Below are positions 5,701 through 20,769 of a stretch of DNA of 64,000 nt, piece after piece. The DNA comes from Nakamurella panacisegetis. GTDB lineage: Bacteria > Actinomycetota > Actinomycetes > Mycobacteriales > Nakamurellaceae. How positions within the stretch are numbered: position 1 is the stretch's first letter; each line of letters opens with the position of its first letter. The position numbers and the translations under genes were made by a program. Location: the NCBI RefSeq assembly GCF_900104535.1, contig NZ_LT629710.1:2976001-3040000 (forward strand), in the 5' to 3' direction. The notes under the pieces are model-generated. The model was not told where the DNA came from. It did not search any database and saw only the letters and a list, made by a program, of their open reading frames with translations.

Positions 5701-8700
5701 GCTGGCCAAACCGGGTATCGACACCATCAACTACACGGTCACCGATCCCTACGGGAAGAAGACGCCCGGGACGGTGACGATGATCGTGGTCGGCACGCCG
5801 GACGTGGTGTCGCCGCCGGTGGCGCCGAACCTGGTGGCGTCGATGCGTCCGGGAAAGGCGGTCTCCATCCGACCGCTGGATTCCGGTGTCAGCGGGGAGA
5901 ACGTCAAGCTGGCCACGCCCGCGATCGACCCGGTCGACGGCTGGCAGGCCGTCGGTGACGGCGACGCACTGGTCATCAGTGCCCCCGGAAAGACAAGTGG
6001 CATCGCCCCTTTCACCTACCACGTGGTCGACGATCGGGGCCTGACGGCGAGCGGGGTCATCACCGTCACCATCTCGGCCACCGCTCCATTGGTCCCACCG
6101 AAGGCCCAGGACGTGATCGTCACCCCGGCGATGGCGACCGACAAGGTCAACGCCGTGGTGAACGTCGCCGGGTCGATCCAGAACAACACCGGGAAGCACT
6201 CGGAACTGTCAGTCGGGCTGACGGCGGGCGAGCCGGCCACGGTCATCTCGGCGACGGTGATCCGGATCCCCCTCACCGCGAACCGGCAGGTGCTGGCCTA
6301 CACCGTGACCGATGGCGACGGGCAGGTGGCGAAGGCATTCATCGTCGTCCCGCCCAAGACCGACCTGGTCGCCGTACCGCAACAGCAGCAGGACCAGCCT
6401 CTGGACCAGCCACCGACACCGAAGGCTCACATGCCGACGCTCACGGTCGACGCCGGCGCGACCGTCACCGGGAAGATTGCCGACTACGTCGACGTGCCGG
6501 CCGGCAAGACCGCCCAGATCCCGGCCCGGTCGCCGATGTCGGCCACGCAGGGAGTCGGACACCTCCTCGACGCGGGCACATTCAGCTACACCGCGGCCAA
6601 GACAGGGGCCGGCCGGGACGCCCTCAGCCTGACCGCCTCGGTTGGCGGATCACCGTCCATCCGGATCGGCGTCCCGATCATCATCATTCCGGCTACCCCG
6701 GTGCTGAACAACACCAACCTCGACGTCGAGGTCGGGCAATCGGGCACGGTCAATCTGGCCAGCCTGGTCAGCCCGACCAACTACCCGGGTGTGGCCGGAC
6801 TCCGGTACACCGCAGGCAGCCCCGGGAACGGATTCACCGCCACCCGGAACGGCACCACGGTGACGGTCGCGGTCGCGGGCTCGGTGCCCAAGGGCGCAAC
6901 CGCTCGCGTCCCGATCAGCGTCACCGATGTCAAGGGAGCCACCGTCGCGGCCGGCATCAACGTGACGGCCACCGGAACCACCAAGCCGCTGCCGACGGTG
7001 AGCGACGCCAGCCAGATCGGAAAGCCCGGTGTGACCAGCACGTTCGACGTGCTCGCCGGCAGCACCGACCCGTTCGGTGCCGGCCTGACGGTACAGCCGG
7101 ATCCGACTGTGCTGCAGGGCAAAGGGACGGTCAGCGTCTCCGGTTCGTCGGTCAGGGTCACTCCGGCCGCCGGCCAGATCGGCGACATGGTCGTGCAGTT
7201 CACCGTGGCCGACGGCACGAAGGATCAGGCTCGCTACGCGTCCGGGAAGCTCACCCTCACGGTCAAGGACAAGCCACACGCGCCCGGGCAGCCCGTTCCG
7301 GTCCCGAACTCGGCGACCGCCAGCTCGGTGACCCTGACCTGGCAGTGGCAACAGAACTGGGCCAACGGCGGCACCGTGCGGCCGTTCGTGGTCAGCGCTC
7401 CCGGCCTGGACAGCACCACCTGCCCGACCAACAGCTGTCAGATCAGCCGCCTGACTCCGGGGCGTCAGTACGTCTTCACCGTCACCGCGACCAACGAGGA
7501 CGGCTCGGCCCAGTCCCCGAGATCGGCCCCGATCACGCCGGACGCCGCTCCGCCGGCTCCGTCCGCCCCGGTTGTGACCTTGAGCGCGGACCGGCAGCTC
7601 ACCGTCACCTGGAACATCGGCAAGGACGACAAGTCCTACAGCCCGGTCACTTCCGCCGTCCTGACCGAAGTGGTCAACGGGACCGACGGCAAGACGACCG
7701 CCGTGCCGTCCTCGGGTCGCGGAAGTCAGGACTTCTCCGGTCTGGACATCGGCAACGCGTATTCCTTCTATCTGACGGTCACCAACAAGAAGGGGTCCGC
7801 GCAGTCGGCGCCGAGCGCTCCGCAGCACCCGAACACGACCCCCGGGCCGGCCACCGCGGTCAGCATCGCCTTCGACCCCGGGAGCCATGCGGCGACCGTT
7901 TCCTGGTCGCCTCCGGCCGCGAACTCACTGCGGCCGACCGTCCAGAGCTACGTGATCACCTACACGGACAACGGATCGTCCCGCACGTTGCCGGTGTCGT
8001 CCGGGTCGGCCACCAGCGCCGAACTGCCCTCGCCGGTGGACGGTCATCGCTATGCGGTGTCGAACATCGTGGCGCACAACAAGTTCGGCGACGGCGACCC
8101 GTCGTCCGGTTCGTCCGGGTCGGTCACCGCGTTCACCACCCCGACCCCGGTCACCTCGTTGACCGCCACCGCCACCGGCGCCGACCACTCGGTGCAACTG
8201 TCGAACGTCCAGGGCGGCGCGTCCAGCGGCCGGACGGGATCGGACTTCTACTCCACCGACAACGGCGGGAGCTGGAAGCAGTTCTCGCCCGGCGACACCG
8301 TCACCACCGATTCCGGCGGGGGTACCCTGGCCAACGGTCAGCAGTACACCTTCACCGCGCGGGTCTGCTATCCGGACGAAAGTCCTTACACCACAGCGCA
8401 ATTGTGCGGCAAGAGTGCGAGCGCGACGGCGACGCCGTACGGCCCGGTCGGGGCGCCGGTGAACGTCCGGCAAACCGACAACAGCCTGACCCAGATCCGG
8501 TTCAACTGGAGCGCGCCGGCCGACAACGGCCGCTCCCCGATGACGACCAAGTACAGCGTTGACGGTGGTGCGTTCGTCAACTTCGGCGCGGGCGACGCGT
8601 CGGTGGTCGTCGGCAACTGGGGTTGTGGGACGCAGCACACGATCAACGTGCAGGGCTTCGATTCCGAGGGTCACGCGGGCCCGCAATCCGGCGCGGTGGC

Positions 8701-9301
8701 CGGCTCGACGTCCGCCTGCCCGGCCCCGGCCGCGCCGACCGGGCTGACCAAGACCAGCAGCGGGCAGAACTCGATCAGGTTCTCCTGGAACGCACCGCCC
8801 AGCAATGGCAAGGGCCCATTGACGAATCAGTATCGGGTGAACAGCGGTGGTTTCGTCGATGCCGGCACGGGCGCGAACCCCAGTGCGACGGCGGGCGGAC
8901 TGAACTGCGGGACCAGCTACAACATCGATGTCCGGGCGGTCGACACCACCGGTCTGGCCGGGCCGGTGACGTCGAAGAACATGTCGACGGACGCGTGTCC
9001 GGCCAGCCCGGTCGTGGACTTCACCAAGGCGACTCACTACAACACGAGTACCTGCTGGGATCCCTCGTGCTACAGCGTGCGCATCACGGTGGCGAATTTC
9101 ACCGGTGTCTCATCGGTGGCGTGCACCAACAACCAGGTCGATCGCACCACCACCATCAACCTGACCGGCGGGGCCGGAAGTGCCGAGAGCACCTGGTATT
9201 TCGGGTACCCCAGCAAGACCATGACCATCACCTGCAGCGGGGGCGGCAAGACGGCGTCCGTCTCCAAAGTGTGGAATTCCGGCAGTACGCCCCCGAGTTG
9301 A
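2795..9301 (+). CDS. Giant membrane-anchored Ig-like / FN3 repeat protein (2168 aa)
   Basis: The ATG at 2795 follows GGGGA at 2784-2788; upstream in-frame starts overlap the previous gene. An N-terminal hydrophobic segment (about 13-37) acts as signal anchor, so nearly the whole chain lies outside the membrane. Residues ~40-370 look like a beta-propeller-type region. From ~375 to ~1480 there are many tandem Ig/cadherin-like beta domains, recognisable by recurring 'YTVTD.G' and 'FSYSVTN' strands. From ~1490 come about six FN3 domains ('PGAPVNV...ITFNWSAP' pattern), then a Cys-containing C-terminal end. Length and repeats suit a fibre spanning the thick cell wall. Its place between the FHA regulators and MoxR/DUF58/EssC-like genes suggests an envelope conduit or scaffold for secretion; this is inference. 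Confidence 0.85.
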   Translation: MMKMPNAWTRGQRGIAIGIVGALTVTTGIAFALNSPGYAQANVDLSTSTVWTTNNTDSLVGRVNMQIKQLNSSFKSNPNFDVLQGDGLVFAVDRTKNQIKTVDQSTVTTGAQIGLPANADVAYGAGILSIIDPSSGKWWAGSSDALSGLDPATAPPAMTTAPNAVAVVTQSGRAFAVAPGSNKIFTIAFNPDGTPIAPAKNATGTTDATGGPTLAAPLSASVPFKAGIAITAVGDTPVVLDRAAGQLYVSGHRVPVADAAAAVLQQSGPAADAVLVETRTQLLQYPLDGGAPTVVFGGGNGSAIAPVRLDGCAWAAWNGPTTLEALACDGGAAQSVTLPGTGKRDPVFRVNDGAIVLNDRTSGTIWAVAKTMTVTVIDNWEQVKPENQSDTTDNTDGSKTQSEEIAAARADCSKQGPAKSTAKDAKYQVRAGRATVLPVLDFVNAGDCAAVVVGTVSKLPTTDGTIDIVNAGQALQVTVPSGVSGRLPSLTYSISDGVNPPVSASLVITVVPAGQPGDIKKQRDSSTEVEINGSVTYNVLPDYYSTTGDDLYLTGASATSAGDTVDFTPAGQLTFHDKGSSGTGNHEVLFTITDGDVVKSGKLTVNVQAEGTGKPIASAVVAASLVNVPTTVNPLNSVLSPSLDPLRLTNVSSKSGGAKATATVNSDDNTVTLSASAAGTYYFAYAVAAGSGKSTGVLRFDVTDRPVKPAPPVATADIVYLPAGDSVRVDPTANDLDPNGSGLAVQQVGTDPSGNLTVTDTDMRTLQIAARGALSKATSLTYSVSNGVATAAGQIRVIPVAPLTDPPAPTANPISLTVRAGDAITLPVDRFASDPRGQALTPTIVPGASGTTPGVLFADSTGVRYLAPTTAPAAPVKFSYSVTNTSGQTSSAAAVTLTVTDRNPAVDSAPNAPATVVSRVFTGETTTVALPLDGIDPDGDWVTVASVDGTTGNLGTATVDGLDAISYTALAKPGIDTINYTVTDPYGKKTPGTVTMIVVGTPDVVSPPVAPNLVASMRPGKAVSIRPLDSGVSGENVKLATPAIDPVDGWQAVGDGDALVISAPGKTSGIAPFTYHVVDDRGLTASGVITVTISATAPLVPPKAQDVIVTPAMATDKVNAVVNVAGSIQNNTGKHSELSVGLTAGEPATVISATVIRIPLTANRQVLAYTVTDGDGQVAKAFIVVPPKTDLVAVPQQQQDQPLDQPPTPKAHMPTLTVDAGATVTGKIADYVDVPAGKTAQIPARSPMSATQGVGHLLDAGTFSYTAAKTGAGRDALSLTASVGGSPSIRIGVPIIIIPATPVLNNTNLDVEVGQSGTVNLASLVSPTNYPGVAGLRYTAGSPGNGFTATRNGTTVTVAVAGSVPKGATARVPISVTDVKGATVAAGINVTATGTTKPLPTVSDASQIGKPGVTSTFDVLAGSTDPFGAGLTVQPDPTVLQGKGTVSVSGSSVRVTPAAGQIGDMVVQFTVADGTKDQARYASGKLTLTVKDKPHAPGQPVPVPNSATASSVTLTWQWQQNWANGGTVRPFVVSAPGLDSTTCPTNSCQISRLTPGRQYVFTVTATNEDGSAQSPRSAPITPDAAPPAPSAPVVTLSADRQLTVTWNIGKDDKSYSPVTSAVLTEVVNGTDGKTTAVPSSGRGSQDFSGLDIGNAYSFYLTVTNKKGSAQSAPSAPQHPNTTPGPATAVSIAFDPGSHAATVSWSPPAANSLRPTVQSYVITYTDNGSSRTLPVSSGSATSAELPSPVDGHRYAVSNIVAHNKFGDGDPSSGSSGSVTAFTTPTPVTSLTATATGADHSVQLSNVQGGASSGRTGSDFYSTDNGGSWKQFSPGDTVTTDSGGGTLANGQQYTFTARVCYPDESPYTTAQLCGKSASATATPYGPVGAPVNVRQTDNSLTQIRFNWSAPADNGRSPMTTKYSVDGGAFVNFGAGDASVVVGNWGCGTQHTINVQGFDSEGHAGPQSGAVAGSTSACPAPAAPTGLTKTSSGQNSIRFSWNAPPSNGKGPLTNQYRVNSGGFVDAGTGANPSATAGGLNCGTSYNIDVRAVDTTGLAGPVTSKNMSTDACPASPVVDFTKATHYNTSTCWDPSCYSVRITVANFTGVSSVACTNNQVDRTTTINLTGGAGSAESTWYFGYPSKTMTITCSGGGKTASVSKVWNSGSTPPS

Positions 9302-9324
9302 TCAACGAGAGAGTGAGCACCTTC

Positions 9325-10290
9325 ATGACGATGACCCCCGAACACGCACAGTGGTTTGCCGAGACTTTCTCCAAGCTGGTCGCCAACGTCGGCCAGGTGG
9401 TGCTGGGCAAACCGCGCACCATCGGGCTGGCCTTCACGTGCCTGTTGTCCGAGGGTCACATGCTGCTCGAGGATTTCCCCGGCACCGGGAAGACGTCTCT
9501 GGCCCGTGCCCTCGCCCAGACCGTGCAGGGGACGACCAACCGGATCCAGTTCACCCCGGATCTGCTGCCCAGCGACGTCACCGGAGTGACGATCTACGAC
9601 CAGCAGACCGGGCACTTCCAGTTCCACCAGGGCCCGATCTTCGCGTCGATCGTGCTGGCCGACGAGATCAACCGGGCCTCGCCCAAGACCCAGTCGGCGC
9701 TGTTGGAGGTGATGGAGGAATCCAAGGTCACCGTCGACGGCGAGACCCACGAGGTCGGGTATCCGTTCATGGTGATCGCCACCCAGAACCCGATCGAACA
9801 GGCCGGAACCTACCGGCTGCCCGAGGCGCAGCTGGACCGGTTCCTGATGAAAGCGTCGCTGGGCTACCCCGACCACGCGTCGACGGTGGAGATCCTGGGC
9901 GCGATCGGCACCCGGAGCCGGCCGAAGGTGGTGGCGCCGCTGATCACCAGCGCGGCGGTGATCGACATGATCGAGCTCGCCTCCACCGTGCACGTCGATC
10001 CCTCGGTGCTGGAGTACGTTTCGCACATCGCCGAGGCCACCCGCCTCGCGCCCGAGACGACGCTCGGGGTCTCGGTCCGCGGATGCCTGGCCCTCGTGCG
10101 GGCGGCGAAGACCTGGGCCGCCGCCAACGGGCGCCACTTCGTCGTGCCGGACGACATCAAGGCTCTGGCCGAACCCGTCCTGGCCCATCGGATCCTGCTC
10201 GACCCGGAGGCCGAATTCGCCGGGGCGAGCGTCCCGGCCGTCCTGAGCCGCATCATCACCGAGATCGCCCCGCCGCAGCGCCGGGCGTGA
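9325..10290 (+). CDS. MoxR-family AAA+ ATPase
   Basis: The product has 321 residues, the usual MoxR size. Walker A is at 51-58 (FPGTGKTS), Walker B/sensor region reads LADEINRASPKTQSALLEVMEE, and sensor 1 is IATQNPIEQ; all are canonical. MoxR ATPases act as chaperone-like remodelling machines, normally with a DUF58 or VWA partner, and here the DUF58 gene is next. I placed the start at ATG 9325, about ten bases after GAGAGAG; GTG 9313 in the same frame is the alternative and would add four residues. The gene lies 23 bases after the giant Ig/FN3 gene and probably helps fold or assemble the exported scaffold or the translocon. Confidence 0.92.
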   Translation: MTMTPEHAQWFAETFSKLVANVGQVVLGKPRTIGLAFTCLLSEGHMLLEDFPGTGKTSLARALAQTVQGTTNRIQFTPDLLPSDVTGVTIYDQQTGHFQFHQGPIFASIVLADEINRASPKTQSALLEVMEESKVTVDGETHEVGYPFMVIATQNPIEQAGTYRLPEAQLDRFLMKASLGYPDHASTVEILGAIGTRSRPKVVAPLITSAAVIDMIELASTVHVDPSVLEYVSHIAEATRLAPETTLGVSVRGCLALVRAAKTWAAANGRHFVVPDDIKALAEPVLAHRILLDPEAEFAGASVPAVLSRIITEIAPPQRRA

Positions 10291-10333: not shown

Positions 10334-11566
10334 GTGAGTCTTCTCGCCCCCCGTCCGGCCGCACCCGGGACCGGACCGACCGCTGGTGGCCGGCGCCCGC
10401 AGGCCGGCCTCGGGCGAGGGTTACGGGTCGTCACCCCGATCGGGTGGACCGCGGTGGGCGCCGCCGTGGTGTTCTTCGCCGCCTCGAGATGGACCGGCTG
10501 GCCGGAACTCTCGGTGGTGGCGGTGGCCCTGGCCGCTGCGCTGGTGGTCGCGTCCGTGTTCGTCGTCGGCCGGTCGCGGTACCGGGTCGTTCTCGACCTG
10601 CGCAGCGAGCGGGTCGTCGTCGGTGAGCCGGCCACCGGCCGGATGCTGGTGAGCAACACCTCCGGCTCCCGCCTGCTGCCGGTGCGGATGGAACTGCCGG
10701 TCGGGGCGGCGATCCCGTCCATCTCGATCCCGTCGCTGGCCAAGGACGCGGTGCACGAGGAACTGTTCGTCATCCCGACCGCGCGGCGGGGGGTGATCGT
10801 GGTCGGCCCGGCGCGATCGGTCCGTGGGGATGCCTTCGGCCTGTTCCGCCGGTCGGTCCGGTGGACCGAACCGGAACTGCTGTACGTGCATCCGCGGACC
10901 GTCCCGCTCGAGGGCACCAGCCCGGGGTTCATCCAGGATCTCGAGGGTGAGGCGACCAAGGAACTGTCGAACAACGACGTGTCGTTCCACGCCCTGCGCG
11001 GTTACGTTCCGGGTGACGACCGGCGGTACATCCACTGGAAGACGACGGCGCGGACCGGCGTGGTGATGGTGCGTCAGTTCGAGGAGACCAGACGGTCCCA
11101 CCTGGCCGTCGCCCTCTCGGTGCGGATGCAGGACTACGGCAGCGAAGCCGAATTCGAGATCGCCGTCGCATCGGCCGCCTCGCTGGGCGTGCAGGCCTTC
11201 CGCGAGGAACGGGCGGTGTCGGTCGTCCCGGGCGACCGGCCGCTCCGAGCCGCCACCGCCCGCCGACTGCTTGACGGGATCGCCGGAGTCGAATGGTCCG
11301 ACACCACCGACGGGGTGGCCACGGCGGCCAGGAACACGGCGGCCACGGTGCCTGACGTGTCGGTCGCGATCGTCCTCTGCGGGAGCGAGCCGACGGTGGC
11401 GCAGATCCGTTCCGCGGCCACGGCTTTCCCGGTCGGCGTGCGCGTGGTCGCGGTCCGGGTGGAACGAGGCGCGCCGATCGCGGTCCGACGCGTCGGCTCC
11501 CTTCCCGTCCTGACCATCGGCGCCCTCGACGACCTGGCCCGCGCCCTCCGGGCGGTGCGCGCATGA
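10334..11566 (+). CDS. DUF58 domain membrane protein, MoxR partner
   Basis: GTG start preceded by AGGAG at 10322-10326. The 410-residue protein has two hydrophobic segments near residues 30-80 and then the DUF58 signature FHALRGYVPGDDRRYIHWKTTARTG around 215-240. DUF58 proteins are von-Willebrand-like adaptors that work with MoxR ATPases, commonly in moxR-DUF58-transglutaminase operons as here. The stop overlaps the next start (ATGA, 11563-11566), so translation is coupled. The specific client is unknown; the envelope proteins of this locus are the obvious candidates. Confidence 0.9.
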   Translation: MSLLAPRPAAPGTGPTAGGRRPQAGLGRGLRVVTPIGWTAVGAAVVFFAASRWTGWPELSVVAVALAAALVVASVFVVGRSRYRVVLDLRSERVVVGEPATGRMLVSNTSGSRLLPVRMELPVGAAIPSISIPSLAKDAVHEELFVIPTARRGVIVVGPARSVRGDAFGLFRRSVRWTEPELLYVHPRTVPLEGTSPGFIQDLEGEATKELSNNDVSFHALRGYVPGDDRRYIHWKTTARTGVVMVRQFEETRRSHLAVALSVRMQDYGSEAEFEIAVASAASLGVQAFREERAVSVVPGDRPLRAATARRLLDGIAGVEWSDTTDGVATAARNTAATVPDVSVAIVLCGSEPTVAQIRSAATAFPVGVRVVAVRVERGAPIAVRRVGSLPVLTIGALDDLARALRAVRA

Positions 11567-13836
11567 CGGCATACGTCGCCGGCCGGCCGGCGACCCGGAG
11601 CGGCCGGCGCGCATCGGCCACGCTCGTTCTCGCCGTGGGGATCGCCGCTCTGGTGGTGGCCGGCTCCCTGGCCCTGCAACCGGCCTACGGCGGGCAACGC
11701 TGGCTGGTCGCCGCGGTGGGCGGCGCGGCGACCGGCGCCCTGGTGGCCTGGGGTGCAGCAAGGCTCGCTCTGCCGTGGTTCTTCTCGGTGCTGGGGCTGG
11801 TGGTGGCCTACCTTCTCTTCGGAGCTGCCCTGGCCACTCCGAGCGTCGCGGCGGGAGGGATCGCGCCCACCCTGGAATCGACCCGGCTGCTGGTCCTGGG
11901 AGTCGTCACGTCGTGGCGGCAGGCACTCACGGTCGCCGTCCCGGTCGGCTCGTCGGGGGCGCTGCTGGTGCCGGTCTTCCTGTCTACCCTGGTGCTGAGT
12001 CACGTCGGCGCCACCATCGCCGTCCGGACCCGCCGGCCGCTGTTCGCGTTGCTGGCGCCGACCGTCATGCTGGCGGTCGCGGCGTTGATGGGCACCTCGG
12101 ATTCCCACCTGCCGCTGGTCTCCGGCGGCGTGCTGGCCGTCGGCGGACTGATCCTGGCCTCGGCGGTCGGCGTGGGGGACGCCCGGCTGAACCTCCGCAA
12201 ACCGGTGTCCGGAATCCTGGTGCTGGCGGCCGCCGTCGCCGCGGTGCTGTTCGCGGGCGGACCCACGGCGCCCGGGAGTCCCCGGGTGGCGCTGCGGACC
12301 TACGTCAATCCGCCGTTCGACCCGCAGACCTACCCGAGCCCGCTGTCCGGGTTCCGCAACTACGTCGGATCCGACGAGGCGAAGAAGGTCAAGCTGTTCA
12401 GCATCAGCGGACTGCCGGACGACGTCGACGTCCGGCTGGCCGCGCTGGACTCCTACGACGGCGTTGCGTTCGGCGTCACCTCCGACACCGGAGCGTTCGC
12501 CCGGGTCGGGGACAAGATCGCCGAATCGGTGACCGGAACACAGGTCTCGGCCCACCTGACCGTCCAAGGCTATCAGGGCGTGTATCTGCCGACCGCCGGC
12601 CATCTGACCGGGATCGAGTTCTCCGGCGATCGGGCGGCCACCCTCACCGAGGCCTTCCGGTACGCCACCGGCAGTGCGGTCGGTGTCGAGCCCGATGGTC
12701 TGCGGCCCGGTGACACCTACGATTTCACCGCCCTCGTGCCGGCCGATCCGACCGACGGCCAGATGGCCTCGGCAGCTGTGGACAACTCCACCGGGATCGT
12801 CGCGCCGGCGAAGATCCCGGACGCGGCCCGGACCGCCGCGACCAAGTACACCGGTGCGGTGGACGGCGCCTACGCGAAGGCCAAGGCCATGGCCGACGGT
12901 CTCAAGGCGGCCGGGCACCTCAGCCACGGGTCGAAGACCGAAACGCGGCAATCGCCCTCCGGACACGGCATCGACCGGCTCACGCGACTGCTGACCGACC
13001 CGCAGATGATCGGTGATCAGGAGCAGTTCGCCCCGGCCCTGTCGATGATGCTGTGGTCCCAGGGCATCCCGAACCGGGTCGTCATGGGATTCGCCACCGG
13101 AAAGCACGGAACCGCGCCGGTCACGGTGACCGGAGGGGATGTCACCGCCTGGGTCGAGGTGCCGTTCGCCGGGGTCGGCTGGGTGTCGTTCGACCCGACC
13201 CCGGACCAGAACTCACAGGCGCCGCAACCGATACCTCGGCAATCGGCGCCCAAACCCCAGGTGGTCCAGCCGCCGCCGCCACCCCCGCCGCCCGGTCAGG
13301 CCAAGACGTCCGAGGTCGATCAGAGCCAGTCCAGCGACAAGAACCCCGACGACAACAAGAAGAACGACCCTCCGCCGCCCGGCAGCGCCGCTTCCGGATT
13401 CTGGTGGGCCATCGGCCTCGGGGCCGGCGGCCTGATGCTGCTGATCGCGGCGGGAGTGGCCCTGATCCTGTGGCTCAAGGCCCGCCGCCGTGCTCGGCGC
13501 CGGAACGCCCCTGCGCCCCCGGACCGCATATCCGGCGGGTGGAACCAGGTGCTGGACGAGGCGACCGATTTCGGCTGGGCCGTGCCGGACAGACGCACCC
13601 GCTCGGAAGCCGCTGCCGACCTTGACGAACGATTCGCCACCGGCACCGTCCTGCTGGCCCGGGAGGCCGACGCGAGAGTGTTCGGGCCGGATGCCGTCGA
13701 CGACGAGCAGGCCGCCCGGTTCTGGACCGAGGTCGACGCGGCCCTGCTCGGCCTGCAGACCGGACACGGTAGGTGGCGGCGCCTGCGGGCCCGGGTCTCC
13801 ATCGCGTCCCTACGCCGAGAAGACGGGCGCCGATAG
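11563..13836 (+). CDS. Transglutaminase-fold membrane protein lacking catalytic Cys and His
   Basis: This 757-residue TgpA-like protein has a cluster of about six N-terminal membrane helices (to ~residue 240), an outer domain with the transglutaminase core near 470-550, a Pro-rich linker, a further helix near 612-640 and a cytoplasmic tail. In active family members the core reads G-x-C-x-x-F/Y-A and later a HAWVEV motif. Here they read GDQEQFA (Q486 where Cys is expected) and TAWVEV (T528 where His is expected), while FDP with D544 remains. It should therefore be inactive as a protease or transglutaminase and is more likely a structural partner. It completes the moxR-DUF58-transglutaminase trio and abuts the ATPase gene without a gap. 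Confidence 0.88.
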   Translation: MTAYVAGRPATRSGRRASATLVLAVGIAALVVAGSLALQPAYGGQRWLVAAVGGAATGALVAWGAARLALPWFFSVLGLVVAYLLFGAALATPSVAAGGIAPTLESTRLLVLGVVTSWRQALTVAVPVGSSGALLVPVFLSTLVLSHVGATIAVRTRRPLFALLAPTVMLAVAALMGTSDSHLPLVSGGVLAVGGLILASAVGVGDARLNLRKPVSGILVLAAAVAAVLFAGGPTAPGSPRVALRTYVNPPFDPQTYPSPLSGFRNYVGSDEAKKVKLFSISGLPDDVDVRLAALDSYDGVAFGVTSDTGAFARVGDKIAESVTGTQVSAHLTVQGYQGVYLPTAGHLTGIEFSGDRAATLTEAFRYATGSAVGVEPDGLRPGDTYDFTALVPADPTDGQMASAAVDNSTGIVAPAKIPDAARTAATKYTGAVDGAYAKAKAMADGLKAAGHLSHGSKTETRQSPSGHGIDRLTRLLTDPQMIGDQEQFAPALSMMLWSQGIPNRVVMGFATGKHGTAPVTVTGGDVTAWVEVPFAGVGWVSFDPTPDQNSQAPQPIPRQSAPKPQVVQPPPPPPPPGQAKTSEVDQSQSSDKNPDDNKKNDPPPPGSAASGFWWAIGLGAGGLMLLIAAGVALILWLKARRRARRRNAPAPPDRISGGWNQVLDEATDFGWAVPDRRTRSEAAADLDERFATGTVLLAREADARVFGPDAVDDEQAARFWTEVDAALLGLQTGHGRWRRLRARVSIASLRREDGRR

Positions 13837-16800
13837 ATGAAGCTCAAGTTCACGCTGGTACGACCGGGGGGCCAGACGGTGGATCTGGTCGCGACGGTGG
13901 ACGCCACCGTGTCCGTCGGCGACCTGGCCTCGGCAGTCGAGCGCTGCGACCCGGTGCGCCAGGCCCAGGGCGCACGCGCCCCGCGGCTATCGGTGTCCGC
14001 CATTCGATCCGGCGAGGCATCGGCCCGCGGCACGGCCGGCGACGGGCCGGTACTGACCCTGCGGGTGCACGCGGGCGGCCCGCAAGGGCCCACATCCGTG
14101 CTGGCCGCCGGCATCCCGTTGGCCACCAGCGGACTTCGGTCCGGCTCGTTCGTCTCGTTGGCGGCGGTCACCGAGCAGTGGCACGCGCCGGGCGCGAACG
14201 GAGGCCCCTCGGCGGCCACCCTCACCGTCCTGACCGGGCCGGAGGCCGGGCGGACGATCCCGCTGCGCGAGGGCACCTGCTTCCTGGGCCGGGCCCCGGC
14301 CTGCGACATCCGGCTGACCGATCCGCTGGTCTCCAAGCGTCACGCGCGGATCACCATCGGCGACACCGCGGAGATCATCGACCTGGGCTCGGCCAACGGT
14401 CTGGTGATCGGGGGAGTGGCCGTGCCCAGGGCGGTGCTGCGGCCGCAGGATCGGGTGATCGTCGGTGACACCGCTATCGGGATCACCCTGCACCGGACGT
14501 CCGCGTCGTCGCCGACGGCGACGGCCGACGTCGATTTCAACCGCTCGCCCCGGCTCGACCCCACCTACGCCGGGCTCCGGTTCGAGGCCCCAGAGGCCCC
14601 GGAGCGCCCGCCCCGGGCCCGGTTGCCCATCCTGGCCATGCTGGCTCCGCTGATCATGGGAGCGGCGCTGTTCGCGTTCACCCGCAGCGCCCTGTCCGTC
14701 CTGTTCGTCGCCCTGTCGCCGATCTTGGTCATCGGGTCCTACCTGGACGAGCGATTGCAGAGCAGGCGGAACCTCCGCGAGGCCACCGCGGTGTTCGAGG
14801 AGGCGCTCCGCGCGCTCCGGATCGACCTGCGGCAGGCGCTCGCACTGGAACAGGTCGGGCGGCTGGCCGAGGCACCGTCGACCACGGACTCGGTCGATGC
14901 CATTCACCGCCAGACCGCGTTGCTGTGGACCCGTCGCGGCGAGCACGACCGGTTCCTGACGGCCCGGCTCGGTACCGGCACCCTGCCCAGCCGGCACACG
15001 GTGGTGCTGCCGTCGCGGGCGCGGGCCAAAGCCGAACACTGGCACATGCTCACCGAGCTGCAGTCCGAAGTGGCTCTGGTGCACGGGGTTCCGGTCGTCG
15101 TGGAACTGCCGGCGTGCGGCGGCCTCGGGATCGCCGGTCCTCGGTCGGCCGCCGTCGGTGTGGCCCGCGGCGTGCTGCTGCAGTTCGCCGCATTGCACTC
15201 GCCGGCCGATCTGACCGTCGCCGCCGTCACCTCGAGCGACAGCGGCCGTGATTGGGATGCGTTGAAGTGGCTGCCGCACAACGGTTCTGCGTACTCGCCA
15301 CTGTCGATCGGGCATCTGGCCGACGAGACCGGGGCCGGCACCCGGCTGATCGCCGAGATCGAGCAGCTGATCGTCGATCGCAGCTCCGTCAAGCGTGATC
15401 CCCGGAAGCGGATGATGCCGGCCCTGTTGGTCCTGGTCGAGGACGACGCCCCGGTCGAACGGCACCGGCTGGTCGGCATCGCCGAGAACGGCCCGGAGCA
15501 AGGGATCCACGTGCTGTGGGTGGCCGCGTCGCAGGAGCGGCTGCCGGCGGCCTGCCGGACCTACGTGACCGTGGACCCGGGAACGGGCGAGGTGACGGCG
15601 GGGTTCGTCACCACGGCGTTCGGTGTCGCCCCGGTCGTGTGCGAGACGGTCGACCAGCAGGCGGCCATGCTGGCCGCCCGGGCGCTGGCCCCGGTCGCCG
15701 ACGCCGGAGCGGGGATCGCCGACGAGTCGGATCTGCCCCGCTCGATCTCGTTCCTGACGCTGATCGGGACGGACCTGGCCCAGGACCCGGCCAGTGTCCT
15801 GGAGCGGTGGCACGAGTCCGAGTCAGTCATCGACCGGGCGGCGGCAGCGCCGGTGCCGCGGAAGACGACCAGCCTGCGGGCCGTCGTCGGTCAGGCCGCC
15901 GGCGAGCCGCTCGCCCTCGACCTGCGGACCCAGGGCCCGCATGCCCTGGTCGGCGGTACCACCGGGGCCGGCAAGAGCGAGTTCCTGCAGTCGTGGGTGC
16001 TCGGCATGGCCGCGGGGTATTCGCCCGACACGCTGACCTTCCTGTTCGTCGACTACAAGGGTGGTGCCGCGTTCGCCGACTGCGTCCACCTGCCGCACAC
16101 CGTCGGCCTGGTCACCGATCTCTCGCCGCACCTGGTCCGCCGGGCGCTGGCCTCCCTGAACGCGGAGCTGCGCCACCGGGAACACATCCTCAACGCCAAG
16201 AAGGCCAAGGACCTGCTCGAACTGCAACGGCGCGGCGACCCGGAGGCGCCGCCCAGCCTGGTGATCGTGGTGGACGAGTTCGCCGCGCTGGTGCAGGAGG
16301 TGCCGGAATTCGTCGACGGGGTGGTGAACATCGCGCAGCGCGGCCGTTCCCTCGGTCTGCATCTGATCCTGGCCACCCAACGGCCGGCCGGTGTCATCAA
16401 GGACAACCTGCGGGCGAACACCAACCTGCGGATCGCCCTGCGGATGGCCGACGAGAACGACTCGACGGATGTCCTGGGGGTGCCGTTGGCCGCGGGCTTC
16501 TCGCCGGACATCCCCGGACGCGGTGCGGCCAAGACCGGGCCGGGCCGGATCGCCGGCTTCCAGACCGGCTACGTCGGCGGGTGGTCGCAGCGTGACGCGC
16601 CCGCGGCGCAGGTCAGTGTGGGGGAGCTGGCCTTCGGGCCGGGGCGGCCGTGGGACGAGCCGCAGGTCGAAGATCGCGGTGCCGACGTCGATCTCGGCCC
16701 GACCGACATCGTCCGGCTGGTCGCCACCATCTCCCAGGCCGCCGGCCGGGCCGAGATCCCGGCGCCGCGTAAGCCCTGGCTGCCGGACATGGCGCCGACC

Positions 16801-18282
16801 TACGACCTGCAGTTCTTGGGCCAGCGGCGAGATCGCGAACTGGCCTTGGGGGTGATCGACGATCCGAACGCCCAGCAGCAGCGGACGGCGTACTTCTACC
16901 CGGACCTTGACGGCAACATGGCTGTCTACGGCACCGGCGGCTCCGGGAAGTCCACGCTGCTGCGCACCGTCGCGCTGGCCGCCGGGATCACCCCCCGATC
17001 CGGGCCGTGCCAGGTCTACGGGCTCGACTTCGGCTCGTCGGGGCTGCGCATGCTCGAAACGCTGCCCCACGTCGGCAGCATCATCTCCGGCGACGACGAC
17101 GAGCGGATCAACCGACTGATGCGCTGGCTGAAGACGGTGCTGGACGAGCGGGCCGGTCGGTACGCCGCAGTCCGGGCGGGCAGCATCACCGAGTACCGCG
17201 ACATCAGCGGCCACCACGACGAGCCGCGGATCCTGTTGCTGGTCGACGGTATCGCCAATTTCCGGCAGCAGTACGAAAGTCACGCCGTCGCGTCGATCTT
17301 CGCCATGTTCACCCAGATCGCCGCCGACGGCCGTCCGGTCGGCGTCCACGTGGTGGTGACCGCGGACCGGGCGGCGTCGATCCCCAGCTCGCTCCGGGCC
17401 GCGATCCAGCGGACGGCCGTGCTCCGTCTGGCCGACGACAGCGACTACAACTTCCTGGGCGTGCCGGCCGACGCCATGGACGGCAATTCCCCGCCCGGGC
17501 GGGGCGTCCTGGACGGTCTCGACCTGCAGGTGGCGGTGCTCGGCGGCAGCCCCAACCTGGCCGTGCAGTCCAAGGCGGTCGATGATCTGGCCCGGACCCT
17601 GCGGGCACGTGGGGTGGTCGACGCGCCGGCCATCGGGCGCCTGCCGAACCGCGTGTTGCTGGCCGAGCTACCGCCGGGCACATCCGGGGTGCCGATCGGG
17701 ATCGCCGGAAACACCTTGGCCCCCATCGAATTCGAGCCCGAGGGCTATTGGGTTCTGGCCGGCCCGCCCGGGTCCGGTACGCCCGACGTGCTGGTCGGTC
17801 TGGCGGCGGCCATCGCCCGGGACCGGCCCGGCATCCAGCGCCTGCTGGTGTCCGGCCGGAAGTCCGCGGTCGAACCGTCGCTGCCCTGGACGGCGATCCT
17901 ACGGACCGACGACGACCTCGAGCGCTGGACGGCCGCGGTGGCCGCCGCGGCCGCGACGACGGTGCTGTTCGTCGAGGACGTGGCCGGGCTGGTTGGCACG
18001 GCGATGGAGCAGGCCGTGTTCAACCTGGCCCAGGCCCTCGGCCGGGCGGGTGGAGGGGTCATCGCCGAGTCCGAGACCGGCACCTGGTCGCAGTACAGCG
18101 ACCTGCTCAAGCTGCTGCGCGGACAGCGGAAGGGGTTCCTGGTCCAGCCGGACCAGGCTGACGGGGACAACCTGCTGCGCACCGACCTGCCCCGCGGTCA
18201 ACGCAAAGATTTCGCCGTCTGCGGCGGGGCGTTCGTGCTCAACGGGTCCGTTACCAAGGTGCAGTTCGTCGAGGCCAGCTGA
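13837..18282 (+). CDS. Type VII secretion FtsK/SpoIIIE ATPase with N-terminal FHA domain (EssC/EccC-like)
   Basis: The start ATG follows the upstream TAG directly. The 1481-residue order is as follows. A ubiquitin-like or FHA-like beta region is at ~1-95. An FHA domain at ~128-222 has FLGRAPACDIRL, SKRHARI and DLGSANG. Two membrane helices lie at ~261-305. FtsK domain 1 follows, with Walker A TGAGKSEF near 708-716 and Walker B LVIVVDEF near 807. Domain 2 has Walker A TGGSGKST near 1033-1040, and its Walker B-like LLLVDG lacks the Glu. Domain 3 is degenerate (PPGSGTPD near 1308). FHA before two helices is the EssC plan of Firmicutes rather than mycobacterial EccC. It should energise export of the WXG100 proteins encoded just downstream. 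Confidence 0.93.
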   Translation: MKLKFTLVRPGGQTVDLVATVDATVSVGDLASAVERCDPVRQAQGARAPRLSVSAIRSGEASARGTAGDGPVLTLRVHAGGPQGPTSVLAAGIPLATSGLRSGSFVSLAAVTEQWHAPGANGGPSAATLTVLTGPEAGRTIPLREGTCFLGRAPACDIRLTDPLVSKRHARITIGDTAEIIDLGSANGLVIGGVAVPRAVLRPQDRVIVGDTAIGITLHRTSASSPTATADVDFNRSPRLDPTYAGLRFEAPEAPERPPRARLPILAMLAPLIMGAALFAFTRSALSVLFVALSPILVIGSYLDERLQSRRNLREATAVFEEALRALRIDLRQALALEQVGRLAEAPSTTDSVDAIHRQTALLWTRRGEHDRFLTARLGTGTLPSRHTVVLPSRARAKAEHWHMLTELQSEVALVHGVPVVVELPACGGLGIAGPRSAAVGVARGVLLQFAALHSPADLTVAAVTSSDSGRDWDALKWLPHNGSAYSPLSIGHLADETGAGTRLIAEIEQLIVDRSSVKRDPRKRMMPALLVLVEDDAPVERHRLVGIAENGPEQGIHVLWVAASQERLPAACRTYVTVDPGTGEVTAGFVTTAFGVAPVVCETVDQQAAMLAARALAPVADAGAGIADESDLPRSISFLTLIGTDLAQDPASVLERWHESESVIDRAAAAPVPRKTTSLRAVVGQAAGEPLALDLRTQGPHALVGGTTGAGKSEFLQSWVLGMAAGYSPDTLTFLFVDYKGGAAFADCVHLPHTVGLVTDLSPHLVRRALASLNAELRHREHILNAKKAKDLLELQRRGDPEAPPSLVIVVDEFAALVQEVPEFVDGVVNIAQRGRSLGLHLILATQRPAGVIKDNLRANTNLRIALRMADENDSTDVLGVPLAAGFSPDIPGRGAAKTGPGRIAGFQTGYVGGWSQRDAPAAQVSVGELAFGPGRPWDEPQVEDRGADVDLGPTDIVRLVATISQAAGRAEIPAPRKPWLPDMAPTYDLQFLGQRRDRELALGVIDDPNAQQQRTAYFYPDLDGNMAVYGTGGSGKSTLLRTVALAAGITPRSGPCQVYGLDFGSSGLRMLETLPHVGSIISGDDDERINRLMRWLKTVLDERAGRYAAVRAGSITEYRDISGHHDEPRILLLVDGIANFRQQYESHAVASIFAMFTQIAADGRPVGVHVVVTADRAASIPSSLRAAIQRTAVLRLADDSDYNFLGVPADAMDGNSPPGRGVLDGLDLQVAVLGGSPNLAVQSKAVDDLARTLRARGVVDAPAIGRLPNRVLLAELPPGTSGVPIGIAGNTLAPIEFEPEGYWVLAGPPGSGTPDVLVGLAAAIARDRPGIQRLLVSGRKSAVEPSLPWTAILRTDDDLERWTAAVAAAAATTVLFVEDVAGLVGTAMEQAVFNLAQALGRAGGGVIAESETGTWSQYSDLLKLLRGQRKGFLVQPDQADGDNLLRTDLPRGQRKDFAVCGGAFVLNGSVTKVQFVEAS

Positions 18283-18304: not shown

Positions 18305-18350
18305 ATGGGTAGTGCTGCCCATTGCCGGTTCCGACCAGATCCCATAACTT
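18305..18350 (+). promoter_or_regulatory. Promoter P1 with imperfect palindrome, upstream of first WXG100 gene
   Basis: ATGGGTAGTGCTGCCCAT (18305-18322) is an imperfect palindrome with perfect ATGGG/CCCAT ends. It overlaps by one base a -35-like TTGCCG (18322-18327), followed by a 17-base spacer and a -10-like TAACTT (18345-18350). The same arrangement recurs at 18696-18741. The palindrome centre falls about 43 bases before the predicted start site, the position of a class II activator; an activator or repressor is inferred, not shown. Confidence 0.65.
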
Positions 18351-18410
18351 TGGTCTCACCTCCCGCCGGGGGGTGGGGAATCAAAAAGACGCTGAAAAGG
18401 AGCATTCATC

Positions 18411-18686
18411 ATGTCGCTCGTCGGAATGGATGTTGATGTCGTCAAGGGGATCGGCAAGGATCTGGGGACCCAGGCCCAGGCGATCCAGACGTCGATCAAC
18501 GCGATCAACAAGTTGCTGGACAACGCGAAGCAGAACTGGAAGGGCAAGGATTCCGACCACTTCGAGCAGCTCTGGCACGGGCAGTACCAGGGCCAGATGC
18601 GCAAGATCCAGTCCGACATCGAGGATCTGGGCAAGGCCGCCATCAAGAACGCCGGTGAGCAGGAGCGCACGTCCGGTTCCTACTGA
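18411..18686 (+). CDS. WXG100 family (Esx-like) secreted protein, copy 1
   Basis: This 91-residue helical-hairpin protein has the WXG turn as NWKGKDSDHFEQLW (W43-K-G45). AAAGGAG lies eight bases before the ATG. WXG100 proteins are the small substrates of type VII secretion and fold as two antiparallel helices, usually as dimers. The usual C-terminal YxxxD/E export signal is not visible; the chain ends TSGSY. It follows the EssC-like ATPase after 128 bases, but with its own promoter (18305-18350), so it can be made in excess of the machinery. It matches the second copy at 89 of 91 residues, so homodimers or mixed dimers are both possible. Confidence 0.93.
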   Translation: MSLVGMDVDVVKGIGKDLGTQAQAIQTSINAINKLLDNAKQNWKGKDSDHFEQLWHGQYQGQMRKIQSDIEDLGKAAIKNAGEQERTSGSY

Positions 18687-18695
18687 CCGGCAGGC

Positions 18696-18741
18696 ATGGG
18701 TAGTTGTGCCCATTGCCCCATCACGAATTGCGAATTACATT
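18696..18741 (+). promoter_or_regulatory. Promoter P2 with imperfect palindrome, upstream of second WXG100 gene
   Basis: ATGGGTAGTTGTGCCCAT (18696-18713) shares its outer bases with the palindrome of P1 and again overlaps by one base a -35-like TTGCCC (18713-18718). A 17-base spacer then leads to TACATT (18736-18741), which fits TANNNT. Sequence between the boxes differs from P1, so conservation is confined to the palindrome and promoter elements. That supports function. Confidence 0.65.
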
Positions 18742-18817: not shown

Positions 18818-19093
18818 ATGTCGCTCGTCGGAATGGATGTTGATGTCGTCAAGGGGATCGGCAAGGATCTGGGGACCCAGGCCCAGGCGATCCAGACGTC
18901 GATCAACGCGATCAACAAGTTGCTGGACAACGCGAAGCAGAACTGGAAGGGCAAGGATTCCGACCACTTCGAGCAGCTCTGGCACGGGCAGTACCAGGGC
19001 CAGCTGCGCAAGATCCAGTCCGACATCGAGGATCTGGGCAAGGCCGCCATCAAGAACGCCGGTGAGCAGGAGCGCACCTCCAACTCCTACTGA
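18818..19093 (+). CDS. WXG100 family (Esx-like) secreted protein, copy 2
   Basis: This near-identical paralogue of the preceding gene also has 91 residues; it differs by M to L in GQYQGQ(M/L)RK and G to N near the C-terminus (TSNSY). The ATG at 18818 aligns with copy 1 and keeps the same AAAGGAG ribosome site; an in-frame TTG at 18800 would only add six residues. The WKG turn is conserved. It is driven by promoter P2 and is followed after 44 bases by a larger WXG100-fusion gene, which is probably co-transcribed. The two copies may raise dosage or form a pair with slightly different surfaces. Confidence 0.93.
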   Translation: MSLVGMDVDVVKGIGKDLGTQAQAIQTSINAINKLLDNAKQNWKGKDSDHFEQLWHGQYQGQLRKIQSDIEDLGKAAIKNAGEQERTSNSY

Positions 19094-19137
19094 TCGCCGG
19101 TCGGTAGGTCCTCGGGCAAGAAAGGATGGCGGTGACG

Positions 19138-20238
19138 ATGGCATTCGTCGGGATGGACCTGCAGGTGATCCGGCAGGTCGGGCGTGATCTGCAGACTCAG
19201 TCGCTGAATCTGCGCGGCGTCGTCACCACCGTCGATCGGACGGCCGGACGGGCGCGACAATCCTGGCACGGCCAGGATTCCGACCATTTCACGCAGCTGT
19301 GGACCGGTCAGTACCGGGCGATCATCGACGCGCTGGCCAAGGAGATCGACGAACTGGGGGCCAAGGCCCTCGGCAACGCCGACGCCCAGGACGCCACGAG
19401 CTCGTCGTACGACGGGAACGCCTCGGGTGTCAGCTCGGCCGGGTTGACCACGGCCGGGACCGGGACGGTGACGGATGGAAACGGCCATCCCAGCTACGTC
19501 CAGGTCAGCGGCCAGGGCAGCTACGGTCCGCTGGACTACCGAGGCACGGCCGGCGCCGGCGCCCAGGCCGACGCCCACGCCTCCGGCTCGATGGACGGCA
19601 ACACCATGTCCGGCTCGGCCGACGCCAGCGCCAGGGCCGGTGCCTGGGCTTCCGGTGACGCATCCCTGCACGCCGGACCCCTGAACGGCACCGCGCACGG
19701 CGACGCGTTCGCCGGCGCCCAGGCCAATGCCGACGCGTCCGGCCGCATCGGTCCGGACGGCGCCACCGGCCAGGCCCACGCCGGCGCCTTCGCCGGTGCC
19801 CAGGCCAACGCCGACGGCAACCTGTCCCTGGGGCCGGTCGGTGTCTCCGGCACGGCGAACGCCATGGCCGGCGCCTCGGCGACCGGATCGGTCAACGGCA
19901 CGATCAGTGCCACACAGGTCACCGGCGGCTTCAGCGGTGATGCCTTCGCCGGCGCCCGGGCCAGTGCGGGCTACACGACGTCGGTCCTGGGGATGAACAG
20001 CTCGACCACAGCATCGGCGTGGGCCGGCATCGGCGCCAAGGCGTCCGGTGACCTGGCTATCGGCTACGACGACGTGCATCTCGGCTTCGATGTGGGAGCC
20101 GGACTGGGGCTCGGTGCCGAGGTCGGCTTCGACGTCGACTTCAGTCCGAAGGACATGGTCAACGGCATCTCCGACACCGTCGGTGGCATCGCCAGCGTCG
20201 GCGACAGCGTCGTCCACGACATCAGCAGCTGGTTCTAG
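19138..20238 (+). CDS. WXG100-domain protein with long Gly/Ala-rich repeat tail, candidate secreted effector
   Basis: Residues 1-95 align with the two WXG100 proteins (MAFVGMDLQVI against MSLVGMDVDVV, SWHGQDSDHFTQLW at the turn, then SSSY). I therefore chose ATG 19138 rather than the ATG 12 bases earlier; AGAAAGGA lies about 12 bases before it. The remaining ~270 residues are rich in Gly, Ala, Asp and Ser. They hold imperfect repeats such as GDAFAGAQANADASG and GAFAGAQANADG, then a hydrophobic Gly-rich C-terminus. No enzyme motif or Cys is seen. A WXG100 module fused to a C-terminal region is the plan of larger type VII substrates; the tail could be a beta-solenoid, a surface adhesin or a membrane-active domain. 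I do not recognise it. Confidence 0.8.
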   Translation: MAFVGMDLQVIRQVGRDLQTQSLNLRGVVTTVDRTAGRARQSWHGQDSDHFTQLWTGQYRAIIDALAKEIDELGAKALGNADAQDATSSSYDGNASGVSSAGLTTAGTGTVTDGNGHPSYVQVSGQGSYGPLDYRGTAGAGAQADAHASGSMDGNTMSGSADASARAGAWASGDASLHAGPLNGTAHGDAFAGAQANADASGRIGPDGATGQAHAGAFAGAQANADGNLSLGPVGVSGTANAMAGASATGSVNGTISATQVTGGFSGDAFAGARASAGYTTSVLGMNSSTTASAWAGIGAKASGDLAIGYDDVHLGFDVGAGLGLGAEVGFDVDFSPKDMVNGISDTVGGIASVGDSVVHDISSWF

Positions 20239-20271
20239 AGATCAGTCCGCAACGAACGAAAGGCCATGGTC

Positions 20272-20769
20272 ATGTCGAACTCGACCATCAGATTCCCGAG
20301 TGAGGATTTCCCGGCACTGCCGGCGGTGTCCCTTGTGCTGCCTGAGGAATGGTCGGGCGTGGTGGTGCCGGCGACGGTGCTCGCCGCACACCGGCGCGTC
20401 GACGAAGGGCAGTTCGTCTCCAACGTGATCGTGCGTACCCAGCGGGTGGAGAACACCGTGGATCTCCAGACGGCCGCCGCCATCGTGGATGAGGGCGTGG
20501 CGTCCCTGGCCGACGTCCAGGACATCGGGCGGGCGATCATCGAGACCGCCGGGCGGAACGGCTACGCCCGGGAATTCGCCTTCCGTCATGCCGAGGCCGG
20601 AACCCTGGCCCAGTCCTGGCGCATCTTCGTGGTCGAACACGACGGTGTCACCGACCTGGTCGAGCTGGTCGGTACGGTCTCACCGGCCCGCACCCTGGAC
20701 CTGGCCGAGATCCGATCGATCATGGACACGGCGCTGATCGGCGACCGGCAACCGGCCGTCCGGTCCTGA
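20272..20769 (+). CDS. LpqN-like (PsbP/Mog1 fold) cytosolic protein
   Basis: ATG 20272 is preferred because GAAAGG sits eight bases upstream; ATG 20266 lies only two bases from it. The 165-residue protein has no signal peptide. Its pattern (VSLVLPEEWSGVVVP, FVSNVIVRTQRV, SWRIFVVEHDG, DLVELVGTVSP) resembles the LpqN/LpqT family fold, but without a lipobox. Small proteins of this kind often sit beside actinobacterial type VII genes, and a chaperone role for the WXG100 substrates is conceivable; that is inference. The stop codon is embedded in a strong hairpin (20761-20820). Confidence 0.55.
   Translation: MSNSTIRFPSEDFPALPAVSLVLPEEWSGVVVPATVLAAHRRVDEGQFVSNVIVRTQRVENTVDLQTAAAIVDEGVASLADVQDIGRAIIETAGRNGYAREFAFRHAEAGTLAQSWRIFVVEHDGVTDLVELVGTVSPARTLDLAEIRSIMDTALIGDRQPAVRS

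Follow-up and report, generated by a model that had tools for sequence, protein, structure and literature searches.

The systems closest to the locus analysed here are T7SSd, a type VII secretion system found in Actinomycetota (PMC11217815), and the PFNA operon of Bifidobacterium (PMC8430577, PMC6803598). In the available part of its description, T7SSd comprises a WXG100 protein (TsdA), an FHA-bearing EccC/EssC-like ATPase (TsdC), a Ser/Thr kinase (TsdD), the single-pass protein TsdH and a giant Ig-like protein (TsdI); that part reports no ubiquitin-like protein for the system, and the main text makes no mention of a promoter, a helix-turn-helix (HTH), MoxR or a transglutaminase (PMC11217815). 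The PFNA operon holds genes for a kinase, an fn3 protein, an AAA ATPase, a DUF58 protein, a transglutaminase, a phosphatase and an FHA protein, and its transcription starts have been mapped. Neither PFNA paper mentions WXG or a promoter, PMC8430577 does not mention a palindrome, and the available sections name no regulator (PMC8430577, PMC6803598). EspM of mycobacteria, whose gene lies beside a type VII cluster, combines an FHA domain with a C-terminal HTH and regulates its secretion system; its description does not mention a palindrome (PMC7002343). Activator palindromes and FHA-HTH regulators of type VII systems are kinds already known.

A gene cluster with features of T7SSd and PFNA

We analysed a stretch of 64,000 nucleotides of the Nakamurella panacisegetis genome (NZ_LT629710.1, positions 2,976,001 to 3,040,000), here called the window. 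It contains the following cluster of genes, with coordinates counted from its first base.

504-2051, + strand: Ser/Thr protein kinase (Pfam Pkinase, E 2.6e-39), directly before the regulator gene
2053-2739 (genome G000:C1:2978053), + strand: putative regulator of 228 aa with a degenerate FHA domain and a C-terminal LuxR/NarL-like helix-turn-helix, from models and fold comparisons
2795-9301, + strand: giant Ig/fn3-repeat protein, TsdI/FN3-like (Pfam Big_9 3e-34, fn3 4.1e-28), start codon as chosen
9331-10290, + strand: MoxR-type AAA ATPase (Pfam AAA_3 1.6e-63, scanned as 9247-10287), start codon as chosen
10334-11566, + strand: DUF58 protein (domain scan)
11563-13836, + strand: TgpA-type transglutaminase (domain scan)
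13837-18282, + strand: EccC/EssC-type ATPase with N-terminal FHA (Pfam FtsK_SpoIIIE 5.8e-51, FHA 5.7e-13)

The kinase belongs to a run of genes that begins outside the window, with a PP2C phosphatase gene and the operator that we call operator 3 below, and the gene for the 228-residue FHA/HTH protein begins two bases past the end of the kinase gene. The last ATPase of the list matches the NCBIfam models EssC (9.4e-156) and EccCa (7.1e-106), in both cases below the models' cut-offs. Its start (13837-13950, ahead of the FHA domain) gave us the impression of a ubiquitin-like appearance; Pfam has no match there.

Four features of T7SSd are present in the machinery of the window: a WXG100 protein, an FHA-bearing EccC/EssC-like ATPase, a Ser/Thr kinase and a giant Ig-like protein. 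Compared with T7SSd as far as its description is available (PMC11217815), the cluster adds PP2C, FHA, FHA/HTH, MoxR, DUF58 and TgpA proteins. The window also has the whole PFNA core: kinase, fn3 giant, AAA ATPase, DUF58 protein and transglutaminase.

Palindromes and promoter boxes in the window

The region behind the ATPase gene carries two palindromes, each followed by promoter-like boxes and a WXG100 gene.

18305-18322, + strand: operator 1 (predicted), ATGGGTAGTGCTGCCCAT, upstream of WXG100 gene 1
18322-18327, + strand: -35-like box TTGCCG, its first T common to the box and operator 1
18345-18350, + strand: -10-like box TAACTT, 17 nt past TTGCCG, a spacing conserved across genera
18411-18686, + strand: WXG100 gene 1, 91 aa (Pfam WXG100, E 3.6e-08)
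18696-18713, + strand: operator 2 (predicted), ATGGGTAGTTGTGCCCAT, upstream of WXG100 gene 2
18713-18718, + strand: -35-like box TTGCCC, overlapping operator 2 by one base
18736-18741, + strand: -10-like box TACATT, 17 nt past TTGCCC
18818-19093, + strand: WXG100 gene 2, differing from gene 1 at 5 of 276 bases
19126-20238, + strand: third protein bearing a WXG100 domain (Pfam WXG100 match below the cut-off, E 0.00064), with a long C-terminal tail

The original prediction, that both palindromes share one base with a TTGCC(G/C) box and are followed by 17 bases and TANNNT, was borne out at these positions; the start of the second WXG100 gene is corrected to 18818. It had also held that the flanks are too unlike for the match to be a mere part of the gene duplication, and this agrees with our comparison: the two spacers are 40% identical over 65 aligned positions, and their similarity is at shuffle level, with 38 of 40 shuffled spacers scoring equal or higher. 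A search of the window with ATGGGTAGTNNTGCCCAT at up to three mismatches returned three matches, namely both exact sites plus the opposite-strand reading of site 1; shuffled windows gave a mean of 0.16 matches, and three were reached in 1 of 100 shuffles. The spacer of the palindrome is four bases long, and a pattern with a five-base spacer gave only chance-level matches in the window.

No such palindrome lies upstream of the third WXG100-domain gene, whose product has a long, repetitive, Ala/Gly-rich C-terminal tail. The next gene (20266-20769) encodes a 167-aa protein with no Pfam match; by eye, a look-alike stands behind an operator in locus L147 (L147:984-1454).

A third site at the head of the machinery genes

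The genome-wide search that had been proposed for the motif gave a positive outcome, and one that extends to many genera. Searched with ATGGGTAGTNNTGCCCAT, the genome of 5,013,870 bases has no more than three sites below three mismatches: two exact ones and one with a single mismatch. At three mismatches there are 14 further rows, three of which are other-strand readings or at chance level; the pattern reversed as a control yields 9 rows genome-wide. The one-mismatch site lies outside the window.

G000:C1:2974165-2974182, 1836 bp before the window: operator 3 (predicted), ATGGGCAGTGGTGCCCAT, 1 mismatch

Operator 3 has TTGCCG behind it and, after 17 bases, TAGCGT, so that the three best sites of the 5.0-Mb genome fall within 20.5 kb and all carry TTGCC(G/C)-N17-TANNNT. 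It heads tightly packed genes for a PP2C phosphatase, an FHA protein, the Ser/Thr kinase and the 228-residue FHA/HTH protein, and the motif therefore marks machinery as well as substrates. This copy had been missed when only two were seen, and it goes against the proposal of dedicated substrate control apart from the machinery: the same element, -35 box and spacing head the predicted PP2C-FHA-kinase-FHA/HTH operon. Substrate-only control was rejected on this ground. The extra operator copies apparently give the WXG100 genes promoters of their own under the same control, and relatives have the element upstream of PP2C and giant Ig/fn3 genes as well.

The FHA/HTH protein

The N-terminus of the 228-residue protein has an FHA fold, with best comparison rows at Z of about 12 (for example 6ccd: 12.1, 2.3 A, 93 aligned). 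Whole-protein fold searches covered the FHA half only, and the HTH was therefore modelled by itself. This C-terminal domain is conserved, with a mean column identity of 76% among 32 sequences, and its model has a pLDDT of 83.8. Compared with known folds, the model gave middling Z values for DegU (9.3; 1.8 A, 67 aligned), LasR (9.1), DosR (8.1) and NarL (8.0), and we predict a LuxR/NarL/GerE-like HTH from it. Foldseek alone found no match to the HTH model at E <= 0.001 (best E 0.23). Pfam and NCBIfam scans of the protein at E 0.1 returned no match and no curated HTH model, and a PDB sequence search with the FHA/HTH profile gave a single match, at E 0.45. No DNA-binding domain was found in the other cluster proteins scanned.

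As modelled, the DNA-binding domain of the FHA/HTH protein may have the fold of DegU, NarL, DosR and LasR, with an FHA domain replacing the receiver or autoinducer domain of NarL/LuxR-type regulators. Regulators of the NarL/LuxR type bind palindromes as dimers. EspM (PMC7002343) has the same order of domains, but the window protein is not matched by the EspM model NCBIfam NF052403 at E 0.1. The FHA fold of EmbR (PDB 2fez) resembles the N-terminal part of the protein (Z 11.9, 2.0 A, 91 aligned). The FHA domain of EmbR is C-terminal (chain 288-382), whereas that of the FHA/HTH protein is N-terminal. The DNA-binding part of EmbR is of another type. In the open-licence PMC literature, outside which most subscription papers lie, we found no description of the FHA/HTH regulator family, its operator or its regulon.

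Aligned to the FHA domain of the ATPase, the FHA part of the protein keeps the Arg and has the Ser and the Asn replaced (VSKRH to LHRRF, SANG to SQLS), these three being what we take to be the phosphothreonine-contact positions. With the usual Ser and Asn lost, a simple switch from kinase to FHA is not supported, and any kinase signal to the protein would probably not pass through the textbook phosphothreonine grip.

Conservation within the genus

The FHA/HTH protein was found in 7 of the 17 genomes of the genus sample, and MoxR, DUF58 and TgpA genes lie near its gene in all seven. In the stretches fetched, five genomes (G000, G001, G004, G005 and G015) have sites with 0 to 2 mismatches at PP2C, between the ATPase and WXG100 genes, or at both places; G005 has them at WXG100 only and G004 at PP2C only. 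In G016 a weaker site upstream of PP2C was recognized by eye. Some copies of the element in the genus have no TANNNT at the usual place. The PP2C element and the FHA/HTH protein are both kept in G004 and G016. The cluster regions fetched from G004, G014 and G016 yielded no EccC-type ATPase.

The cluster of G014 has no site, and this genome holds five exact palindromes elsewhere. By eye, four of the five are followed by a short helical WXG100-like ORF or by a larger ORF that starts alike; tblastn with our own cluster proteins against these stretches gave no match at 1e-4, so the WXG100-likeness was judged by eye. The offset to TANNNT in G014 is 34 at two palindromes and 39 at one. As counter-evidence, a looser pattern matches once each, irrespective of spacing, in G007 and G010, which are without the FHA/HTH protein. 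G054 has one match to a loose pattern.

Enrichment and spacing beyond the genus

An alignment of the seven FHA/HTH proteins led to at least 560 encoding stretches in named genomes. The best 80 of them, mostly Micrococcales by title, were kept; they were picked by the FHA/HTH relative alone, not by the motif. In these 80 loci TGGGNANNNNTNCCCA occurs in 53 exact copies, distributed over 34 loci, while six other palindromes have 0 to 4 sites each. The reversed pattern is identical to the motif and was unusable as a control here. One-mismatch palindromes are not enriched in the 80 loci (80 against 32-184 for controls, strands counted apart).

TANNNT starts 23 bases after the 16-mer at 31 of the 53 exact sites, 24 bases after it at 10 and 33 bases after it at 5, against a background rate of 0.0009 per position; the remaining 7 sites lack it at all three offsets, and one of the 41 at 23 or 24 has a second TANNNT at 26. 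On the opposite side of the palindrome a single TANNNT was seen, at 25. This statistic was taken from the 80 loci only, because some of the other collected sites come from loci that the spaced pattern had served to find. With the first T of TANNNT set at -12, the centre of the palindrome falls at -43.5 or -44.5, and at -53.5 in the 33-base class. The operator stands at a fixed distance from the -10, as at class II activator promoters. The original prediction of a dimer-type operator centred near -43 of a promoter and linked to WXG100 genes is upheld as far as sequence can tell, and the element is conserved across genera too.

A position-matrix scan found a site in 47 of the 80 loci and a site with the spacing in 35, and on reversed sequence three matches, none with the spacing; the matrix was trained on the collected sites, which come partly from these same 80 loci. 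T-x-G stands at the -35 position in 62 of 75 spaced collected sites; since the search pattern largely dictates the T, the G alone is informative. Within 10 kb, the six Paenarthrobacter-titled loci show neither exact nor spaced sites.

Two records titled Acidobacteria and Sporosarcina (L052, L066) contain actinobacterial-type clusters with the motif, for which contamination or mis-binning seems likelier than transfer. In L074, from a metagenome-assembled genome (MAG), two identical operators (7495 and 7650) lie 155 bp apart with an N run between them, possibly an assembly artefact.

Genes downstream of the motif

The collection comprises 82 sites, of which two are reverse readings of a listed palindrome and four have no called ORF; 80 sites were used for the consensus, and 76 ORFs (75 distinct) were scanned with Pfam. 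Among the 75 downstream ORFs there are 40 matches to WXG100, 16 to WXG100_2 (the two may overlap), 6 to Ig repeats and 4 to PP2C, and the single matches include an M23 peptidase. Some targets look unrelated, and some ORF choices are doubtful (L129, L134, L142 and L152 have negative or near-zero coding scores). The sites are spread over the chromosome in some genomes, with seven in G263 and five in G062.

Co-occurrence of the motif and the FHA/HTH gene

Two samples were scored for the spaced motif and for the protein. In the class sample of 296 genomes, 19 have the motif, 27 the protein (E < 1e-50), 17 both and 2 the motif only; that is, the motif occurs in 17 of 27 genomes with the protein against 2 of 269 without it (Fisher 7e-19), eight genomes whose protein matches were weak (E 4e-11 to 1.3e-6) being scored as without. 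In 199 genomes of one family, taking the motif and protein scans as covering the same 199, the counts are 75 for the motif, 80 for the protein, 71 for both, 9 for the protein only and 4 for the motif only, so that 71 of 80 protein-bearing genomes have the spaced motif and 4 of the 119 others do (Fisher 1.8e-38). The genomes are related, and both Fisher values overstate independence. The reversed-pattern control was found in 1 of the 296 class genomes, and none was seen in the 199 family genomes.

Of 76 genera in the family, 12 are mixed for the FHA/HTH gene. Six of the 12 are fully concordant, g188 (two genomes) is wholly discordant, and the remaining non-concordant genera give mixed results. 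Pooled over the 12, the motif is found in 16 of 22 genomes with the gene against 2 of 19 without it, and shuffling the gene within genera reaches 16 in 10 of 20,000 trials.

The exceptions run in both directions. Eighteen genomes have the protein with no spaced motif found. Nine of them hold an exact palindrome, which in four of the 18 (G097, G177, G280, G453) lies within about 5 kb of the FHA/HTH gene, and the reversed control matches 3 of the 18. The other nine of the 18 re-examined (G135, G167, G176, G210, G278, G381, G410, G459, G461) have no exact palindrome. Conversely, the spaced motif occurs without the protein in six genomes, G162 and G181 in the class sample and G382, G406, G421 and G460 in the family. 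In G181 and G162, which belong to one genus and lack the FHA/HTH gene, loci L141 and L142 combine a correctly spaced motif with related-looking downstream sequence. Because the whole cluster is co-inherited, co-occurrence cannot tell the FHA/HTH protein from the other cluster proteins.

Discussion

Judged from its sequence and distribution, the element is real and functional-looking, and broader in reach than was originally supposed: a candidate operator of a conserved secretion regulon. Computation establishes the motif with its spacing and enrichment, the genes beside it, and that it and the FHA/HTH gene occur together. On this basis we think it probable that a dimeric activator of the class II type, most likely the FHA/HTH protein (2053-2739), uses the palindrome as its operator and controls a T7SSd/PFNA-like cluster through it. 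Binding of the palindrome by this protein, activation, co-transcription, autoregulation and any link to kinase signalling are what we infer from these observations.

In the mechanism that we propose, a dimer would bind the palindrome (consensus ATGGGGAGTNCTCCCCAT) centred about 43.5 bp upstream of the transcription start, with a second allowed position about 53.5 bp upstream, one helical turn further. The activator would recruit RNA polymerase to promoters whose -10 is TANNNT and whose -35 is weak and of the T-x-G type. Lying behind the PP2C, FHA and kinase genes after operator 3, the FHA/HTH gene would have its own expression driven too; if PP2C to FHA/HTH form one transcript, positive autoregulation would follow. 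The regulon would consist of the phosphatase/kinase operon, the giant Ig/fn3 proteins and WXG100-type substrates, remote copies included.

The chief alternative in identity is another regulator, and the chief alternative in sign is repression. Operator and regulon could be real and the binder encoded elsewhere, for example as a NarL/LuxR-type response regulator, with the FHA/HTH gene merely co-inherited. The NarL/LuxR fold is widespread, which would allow other proteins to recognize a palindrome of this kind, and the six genomes with a spaced motif and no FHA/HTH gene also favour this account. We nevertheless hold it to be unlikely: the motif tracks the FHA/HTH gene in one family and, less strictly, in the mixed genera of that family; the FHA/HTH protein is the sole DNA-binding candidate among the cluster proteins scanned; and G004 and G016 keep motif and protein together although a search of the regions fetched turned up no EccC homologue. 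As to sign, a dimer that blocks RNA polymerase at the -35 box would agree with the one-base overlap of operator and -35 box in both window copies, a place where repressors can act. The two preferred offsets, 23-24 and 33 (34 at two of the five G014 palindromes), differ by one helical turn and are easier to reconcile with polymerase contact than with simple blocking, and the -35 is weak, which makes repression, too, an improbable reading.

That the palindromes are left over from tandem duplication, or form a hairpin or terminator by chance, seems to us extremely improbable. Such an origin might be suspected from the near-identical duplicate WXG100 genes (5 of 276 bases differ) and from the position of both palindromes close behind a stop codon. 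A remnant of duplication was rejected, since spacer similarity does not exceed that of shuffled sequence and a third copy lies 20 kb away. A hairpin in the downstream transcript was rejected because the element is upstream of its -10; the same position of the window copies, and the lack of a T-run after the palindrome, speak against a terminator. Both ideas are further opposed by the recurrence of the same element and spacing across genera and at other kinds of genes.

Returning to activation through the FHA/HTH protein, we lean towards a wider form of the proposal, with somewhat less assurance than for the locus itself: the family that joins a degenerate FHA domain to a LuxR-fold HTH may be a dedicated activator of T7SSd/PFNA-type systems across Actinomycetes, whose 18-bp operator, at a fixed distance from the -10, would barcode scattered substrate and effector genes. 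Substrates of kinase-associated type VII systems in Actinomycetes have so far been guessed from gene neighbourhood. If the proposal is true, a regulator with a precise operator would make the identity of the switch testable, and a scan for the motif would yield candidate substrates genome-wide.
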